Source of the DNA: Cristatella mucedo
Lineage: Eukaryota > Bryozoa > Phylactolaemata > Cristatellidae
NCBI GenBank assembly: GCA_009760855.2
Contig: WPIO01000061.1
Coordinates: forward strand, 1,967,001-2,031,000
Reading direction: 5' to 3'
DNA: 64,000 bases
Part shown: piece by piece, positions 48,602 through 60,876 of the stretch
Position numbering within the stretch: position 1 is the first letter of the stretch
Layout of the letters: every line of letters starts with the position of its first letter
The notes under the pieces: generated by a model
The model's input: the letters and a program-made list of their open reading frames with translations, nothing else
Databases searched by the model: none
Told to the model about the DNA's origin: nothing
Translations under genes and position numbers: made by a program

Positions 48602-48729
48602 CTACACATGTCTTAAGTTGTGCTTCTGCTGTACAGTTGTACTTTTAAGAGGTAGGGAAACAGGGCAGTCATCTCTCGTACAATTCCTCCAGTGATTGAG
48701 TACGTGTCGGGAAGATGCACAATGAGCAA
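48602..48729 (-). CDS. Exon 7: end of TAZ1 and stop codon
   Basis: Acceptor CTCTGTTGTTTCAG, split Val codon completed by TT. It reads [19 protein letters not shown] then [10 protein letters not shown], closely matching the end of CBP TAZ1 ([19 protein letters not shown]). Cys316 completes zinc site 2. Site 3 has His325, Cys329, Cys334, but the last ligand (C-P-V-C) is Ser337 because TGC is TCC. Thirteen residues later comes an in-frame TAG. A strong donor (CAAG|GTAAGT, intron starting at 48584) follows 17 nt beyond the stop, so either the stop is the true C-terminus or it is a nonsense change in an exon that once continued. Confidence 0.88.

Positions 48730-60876: not shown

Follow-up and report, generated by a model that had tools for sequence, protein, structure and literature searches.

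The stretch of Cristatella mucedo DNA analysed here (64,000 nucleotides, C570:1967001-2031000; hereafter, the window) carries a compact gene for a KIX and a TAZ1 domain, which probably belongs to a family of small protein-coding genes, specific to this lineage, that arose stepwise from CBP and whose products would act as adaptors or decoys devoid of the HAT domain. C570 is the contig of the window, and the genome searched comprised 572 Mb in 688 contigs. Seven exons, all on the minus strand, were rebuilt and join into an open reading frame of 1065 nt (354 aa), with compatible phases and six introns that are all GT..AG. This is the gene model proposed by an earlier reading of the letters alone (the sequence-only reading), and the same exons, with their phases and splice sites, are seen again at two further full-length loci and, for E1-E5, at a third. 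E1 (60804..60876) contains the start codon and, as that reading had it, a CBP-type N-terminus, and ends in phase 1; its motif is also found at three other family loci and in canonical CBP. E2 (58439..58625) encodes a linker and the N-terminal part of KIX recognised by Pfam, while the middle of KIX (E3, 54468..54585) and its C-terminal part with a linker (E4, 54176..54307) were assigned by genome search with KIX and exon comparison. E5 (52123..52251) is a family-specific exon of 43 aa, open in all six copies found (all from family loci, including two in the partial locus C570b) and giving no match in Pfam; being in phase 0 on both sides, it could be omitted by splicing and the frame would be preserved. 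E6 (49696..49993; a linker and the first part of TAZ1) was identified by Pfam and by DNA homology to the CBP gene on contig C441, and E7 (48602..48729; the end of TAZ1 and the stop codon) by the exon model and zinc-ligand table.

Pfam analysis, a domain check of the kind which the sequence-only reading had itself proposed, places KIX at residues 68-144 of the product (PF02172, E 3.1e-11, 43.8 bits against a cut-off of 27) and zf-TAZ at residues 259-336 (PF02135, E 5.7e-17, 62.4 bits against a cut-off of 25). Among solved chains, the nearest to the product come from CBP/p300 for TAZ1 (best E 6.2e-35) and from CBP for KIX (best E 4.6e-10). The KIX assignment thus stands. TAZ1 had been described as whole, but 11 of its 12 zinc ligands are present, the last Cys being replaced by Ser; the domain matches CBP at 59 of 89 positions. 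All twelve ligands are kept in the five sister TAZ1 copies tabulated (five of six family copies; C570:2043k and C262:60k lie outside the table). Neither bromodomain, HAT nor ZZ was matched by Pfam in the 354-aa protein, and only one TAZ is present. The domain order of KIX, TAZ1, stop is the reverse of that of CBP; this order and the existence of a multi-copy family are additions to the earlier reading. With respect to KAT3 proteins, the gene possesses KIX, lacks HAT and departs from the order TAZ1-KIX-bromo-HAT-TAZ2. As regards other KIX proteins (MED15 and KIX_2 proteins), a match to KIX_2 lies just over its cut-off (27.1 against 25.6 bits); PF02172 scores highest and Med15_N remains below its cut-off. 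MED15 is not known to have a TAZ1.

A 3' UTR exon is predicted at 48245..48479 on the minus strand, from a family-conserved donor (48585/48584) and acceptor, an AATAAA at 48250-48245 and alignment. A downstream exon E8 as the source of an additional domain was rejected, as the frame beyond E7 stops after three residues (one in C570:2043k, whose E7 has four additional bases). The E8 acceptor pattern is present at six of the eight TAZ1 places of the family and was not found at C54:10k and C262:60k. The stop precedes the family-conserved E7 donor at four places (window, C262:19k, C54:10k and C262:60k); in C54A, C54B and C54:37k it is located at the E7 donor or, when spliced, three residues further.

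A canonical CBP, which the sequence-only reading had suggested looking for elsewhere in the genome, was identified on the minus strand of C441. It has the start exon (184.5 kb), TAZ1 (181.2-179.7 kb), KIX (178.9-176.5 kb), HAT (168.9-167.0 kb) and TAZ2 (164.1-163.9 kb) in normal order. Matches to HAT (PF08214) were found on C441, C33, C54 (251 kb, on the strand opposite to the KIX-TAZ1 cluster of that contig) and C665, and none on C570 in an exon-by-exon search at E 0.001. Joining of the window exons to HAT exons was rejected on this result, which also agrees with the earlier claim of a short CBP-derived KIX and TAZ1 coding frame without the enzyme. Other CBP-like pieces were seen in passing. 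At C54:251204-254630 (plus strand), diverged HAT, ZZ-like and TAZ2 pieces share 40-70% identity with C441 CBP and may represent the rear half of a disrupted CBP paralogue. A HAT_KAT11 match at C33:510325-511442 has two in-frame TAA codons inside one matched stretch, and may reflect another CBP-like locus, a pseudogene, or introns read through. A three-exon KIX at C54:105012-108228, upstream of the KIX-TAZ1 cluster, is closer to canonical CBP (74, 85 and 59% by piece).

When the whole genome was searched with the window KIX, the central exon of this KIX type was identified at no fewer than five places (C570:2021k, which is the window, C570:1940k, C54:57k, C54:81k and C262:14k), and the KIX of C441 was reached at E 5 to 7 only. 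The equivalent TAZ1 search gave C441 and at least eight non-canonical places at E <1e-13 (C570:2016k, which is the window, C570:2043k, C54:10k, C54:37k, C54:52k, C54:72k, C262:19k and C262:60k). Among these matches, the family KIX and TAZ1 exons are confined to C570, C54 and C262. The start-exon pattern, allowing three mismatches, was matched six times: by four family copies, by canonical CBP and, with three mismatches, on C331; this last match is at chance level, since the backward control of the pattern yielded four. Complete seven-exon copies (E1-KIX-E5-TAZ1) are open at C54B (C54:66219 to about 51183) and C262 (C262:8513-21070), and E1-E5 are open in C570b (C570:1933562-1945730), where no TAZ1 was found in the 20 kb read. 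Other copies are damaged: C54A (C54:91-71k) lacks a start-exon match and its E2 is interrupted by a 1-nt gap and by stops, C570:2043k has a stop within the TAZ1 linker, and E6 of C54:37k has one gap on each side. C54:10k and C262:60k, which over 2.1 kb are 97.4% alike, may represent haplotypes.

The TAZ1 part of the window gene shows direct DNA kinship to canonical CBP. Window positions 48621..50018 (minus strand) align by blastn to C441 181249-179699 in two pieces (75% and 79%), with the E6-E7 intron included. For E2-E4, no nucleotide match to C441 was reported; window and C441 KIX share 37-48% in weak protein matches, and identity to the CBP KIX chain 1kdx is 29 of 79 positions for the window and 62 of 79 for C441. 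As TAZ1 matches at the DNA level and the diverged KIX does not, TAZ1 looks like the younger element, copied to a site downstream of an older KIX; the same KIX results reject a recent origin of the window KIX from that of C441. Retroposition was likewise discarded, since the gene retains its introns, that of TAZ1 being alignable to CBP. In a tree built from the nucleotide sequences of nine TAZ1 copies, the one closest to the canonical copy is C262:19k, and the window is on a long branch (0.131) beside C54B, C54A and C570:2043k (support 84). An old, diverged copy of the 5' part of CBP (start exon and KIX) would have been the starting unit, and a genomic copy of the TAZ1 exon pair, 1.4-1.5 kb in length, would have been gained downstream of KIX, producing the reversed order with a stop soon past TAZ1; the KIX-TAZ1 unit would then have been duplicated several times. 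We infer that the events took place in this order; the placement of TAZ1 may be explained by either segment insertion or unequal exchange between tandem copies.

The coding status of these genes is where the main rival explanation has to be weighed. It is possible, if doubtful, that they are young duplicates in decay, open because they are recent or because some of the sister copies are selected, with function lost from the window copy as a whole or at least from its TAZ1. Neither stops nor frameshifts occur in the three full-length copies (window, C54B and C262), which argues against decay; a neutral substitution simulation from the window coding sequence along three branches, ignoring indels and assuming 60% transitions against about half observed, gave a mean of 6.8 stops and remained stop-free in 4 of 5000 runs. 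Indels in exons amount to 33 nt (29+4) in E6 of C54B and 9 nt in E2 of C570b, while a 3- or 4-nt gap in E7 of C262 is positioned after its stop codon; the blastn gaps that are not multiples of three correspond to the split C54B insertion and to this post-stop gap, there of 4 nt. Gap openings per kb in exon and noncoding DNA are 1.9 and 6.1 (window against C54B), 0.9 and 11.6 (C262) and 1.6 and 15.1 (C570b), so that exon indels are 3-13 times rarer than in flanking DNA, which also speaks against decay. Divergence from the window in exon and noncoding DNA is 0.092 and 0.084 for C54B, 0.127 and 0.136 for C262 and 0.110 and 0.161 for C570b, the two rates being nearly equal in two of the three comparisons. 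Substitution rate alone leaves constraint unproven, while indels and open frames show it.

By the method of Nei-Gojobori, dN/dS over the whole coding sequence of the three full-length pairs is 0.69 (0.44-1.12, window-C54B), 0.59 (0.40-0.91) and 0.62 (0.40-0.93), a weak constraint that is not significant for window-C54B; for E1-E5 of the full copies against C570b, it is 0.41, 0.46 and 0.56. KIX gives 0.89, 0.42 and 0.42 in the full-length pairs, with upper interval ends of 1.78-2.26, all above 1. Against C570b, it gives 0.27 (0.10-0.67) for the window, 0.30 (0.10-0.76) for C54B and 0.28 (0.06-1.08) for C262; the two intervals entirely below 1 weigh against decay, as do the complete zinc ligands of the sister copies. 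For E5, two of the comparisons with C570b yield 1.56 and 1.35. TAZ1 is near neutral in the full-length pairs (0.84, 0.82 and 0.67), and over 91 codons the window TAZ1 has 0.66 against canonical CBP, 1.33 against C54B, 1.41 against C54A and 0.52-0.71 against the remaining five copies. Changes unique to the window in E6-E7 number 25 nonsynonymous and 8 synonymous, a nonsynonymous share of 0.76 where 0.72 would be neutral, as if unconstrained; the corresponding counts are 11 and 0 for C54B, 11 and 8 for C262:19k and 3 and 6 for canonical CBP. These window changes, its lost zinc ligand, the stops in C570:2043k and C54A with the gap in the latter, and the lack of TAZ1 in C570b are what favours decay. 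In our reading, the frames of this family have probably been preserved for their protein, KIX being under constraint and TAZ1 being relaxed or diversifying, most so in the window copy.

A second alternative, improbable in our judgement, is that a KIX-only gene (E1-E5) lies next to TAZ1 exons to which it is not joined. C570b has just this form, the TAZ1 pairs C54:37k, C54:10k, C262:60k and C570:2043k have no family KIX match before the next upstream TAZ1, and the E5 donor is weak (gtgaag in the window, gtcaag in two of six copies). However, the borders of E4, E5 and E6 are all in phase 0 and the splice sites are kept at the three full-length loci; in five of six copies, translation continued beyond the E5 donor runs into a stop in no more than 29 codons (about 61 for the window), and the TAZ1-only places have no start-exon pattern match (up to three mismatches) nearby. 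That the locus is an artefact of assembly, or the 5' portion of a normal CBP transcript, is very improbable: duplicated regions are prone to misassembly and C54:10k and C262:60k could be haplotypes, but misassembly is rejected by the same exon order on three contigs at 9-13% exon divergence from the window, and an ordinary CBP by the lack of a HAT match on C570 and the complete gene on C441.

As regards the function of a KIX-TAZ1 protein family, the binding grooves of KIX are informative. The CREB/Myb groove is described as 12 residues and the MLL groove as different ones (PMC3305381), of which 11 tabulated residues were scored, both lists being from that paper. C441 keeps 12 of 12 and 11 of 11, respectively, and the window KIX 6 of 12 and 2 of 11. 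Tyr650, Tyr658 and Lys662, which belong to the CREB/Myb groove, are Cys, Cys and Ser in the window and in the three sister copies tabulated. The substitution Y658A is reported to abolish the complex with pKID (PMC9814494). Given these groove losses, Tyr658 among them, competition for CREB by the window protein is unlikely, and the sequence-only reading's proposal of competition for CREB/Myb is not retained. If folded, the window KIX should bind other ligands. The best functional guess is a HAT-less nuclear adaptor or decoy: the gene would be transcribed, and its product would tie up ligands of TAZ1 and of the groove-rewritten KIX, partners other than CREB, Myb and MLL, thereby modulating full-length C441 CBP. 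A bolder version, which we consider rather unlikely, is a family of CBP decoys with permuted domains that has been amplified and changes fast, in which KIX would be constrained with a new ligand specificity, TAZ1 would be diversifying between copies, and the products would be enzyme-less hubs tuning or blocking full-length CBP.

Short partial duplicates of cbp-1 without HAT, CBP-2 and CBP-3, are described in Caenorhabditis elegans; CBP-2 contains the first zinc finger and KIX alone, both were formerly called pseudogenes, and knockdown of each alters promoter reporters (PMC10320766). CBP-3 is stated to bear KIX alone in PMC10743222, which differs on this point from PMC10320766. The window family would parallel these genes, and the claim that no such animal gene had been described falls with CBP-2: like it, the window gene is a short HAT-less paralogue from partial CBP duplication with KIX and the first zinc finger alone. 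It differs in having KIX before TAZ1 (the order TAZ1-KIX being assumed for CBP-2) and, relative to both nematode genes, in its rewritten KIX grooves, its at least five KIX and eight TAZ1 places and its location on contigs other than that of canonical CBP. With canonical CBP/p300 (C441) it shares the N-terminal exon, the exon borders inside KIX and the TAZ1 exon pair with its intron, differing in its length of 354 aa, single TAZ, lack of bromodomain, HAT and ZZ, and reversed order. In Lymnaea, an unexplained smaller CBP band is described, with no matching transcript (PMC9828244).

No other HAT-less gene with KIX and TAZ1 was found in the titles and abstract openings of the literature searched on CBP, KIX and TAZ genes. 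HAT-less CBP relatives were thus already known, and it looks as though the reversed order, rewritten KIX and copy number are new relative to that literature. CBP is a hub contested by many activators. A natural multi-copy protein of docking modules only, with their order reversed and their contact grooves rewritten, would, if true, amount to an evolutionary test of which portions of CBP can function in the absence of the enzyme. For TAZ1, the gain seems to have involved a genomic pair of exons together with the intron between them, which would make it a clear example of exon shuffling inside one gene family.

Elsewhere in the window, frames resembling fragments of non-LTR retroelement endonuclease/reverse transcriptase were recognised by eye at 2603-2995, 33504-33974 and 40874-42381 (minus strand) and at 12112-21142 and 43458-43901 (plus strand). 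COX1 on C688, the best-match contig, translates as a normal protein with table 5, and further COX1 matches at C166:4375626-4376390, C83:2826-3735, C549:2641741-2642010 and C299:634220-634540 are perhaps nuclear copies of mitochondrial DNA.
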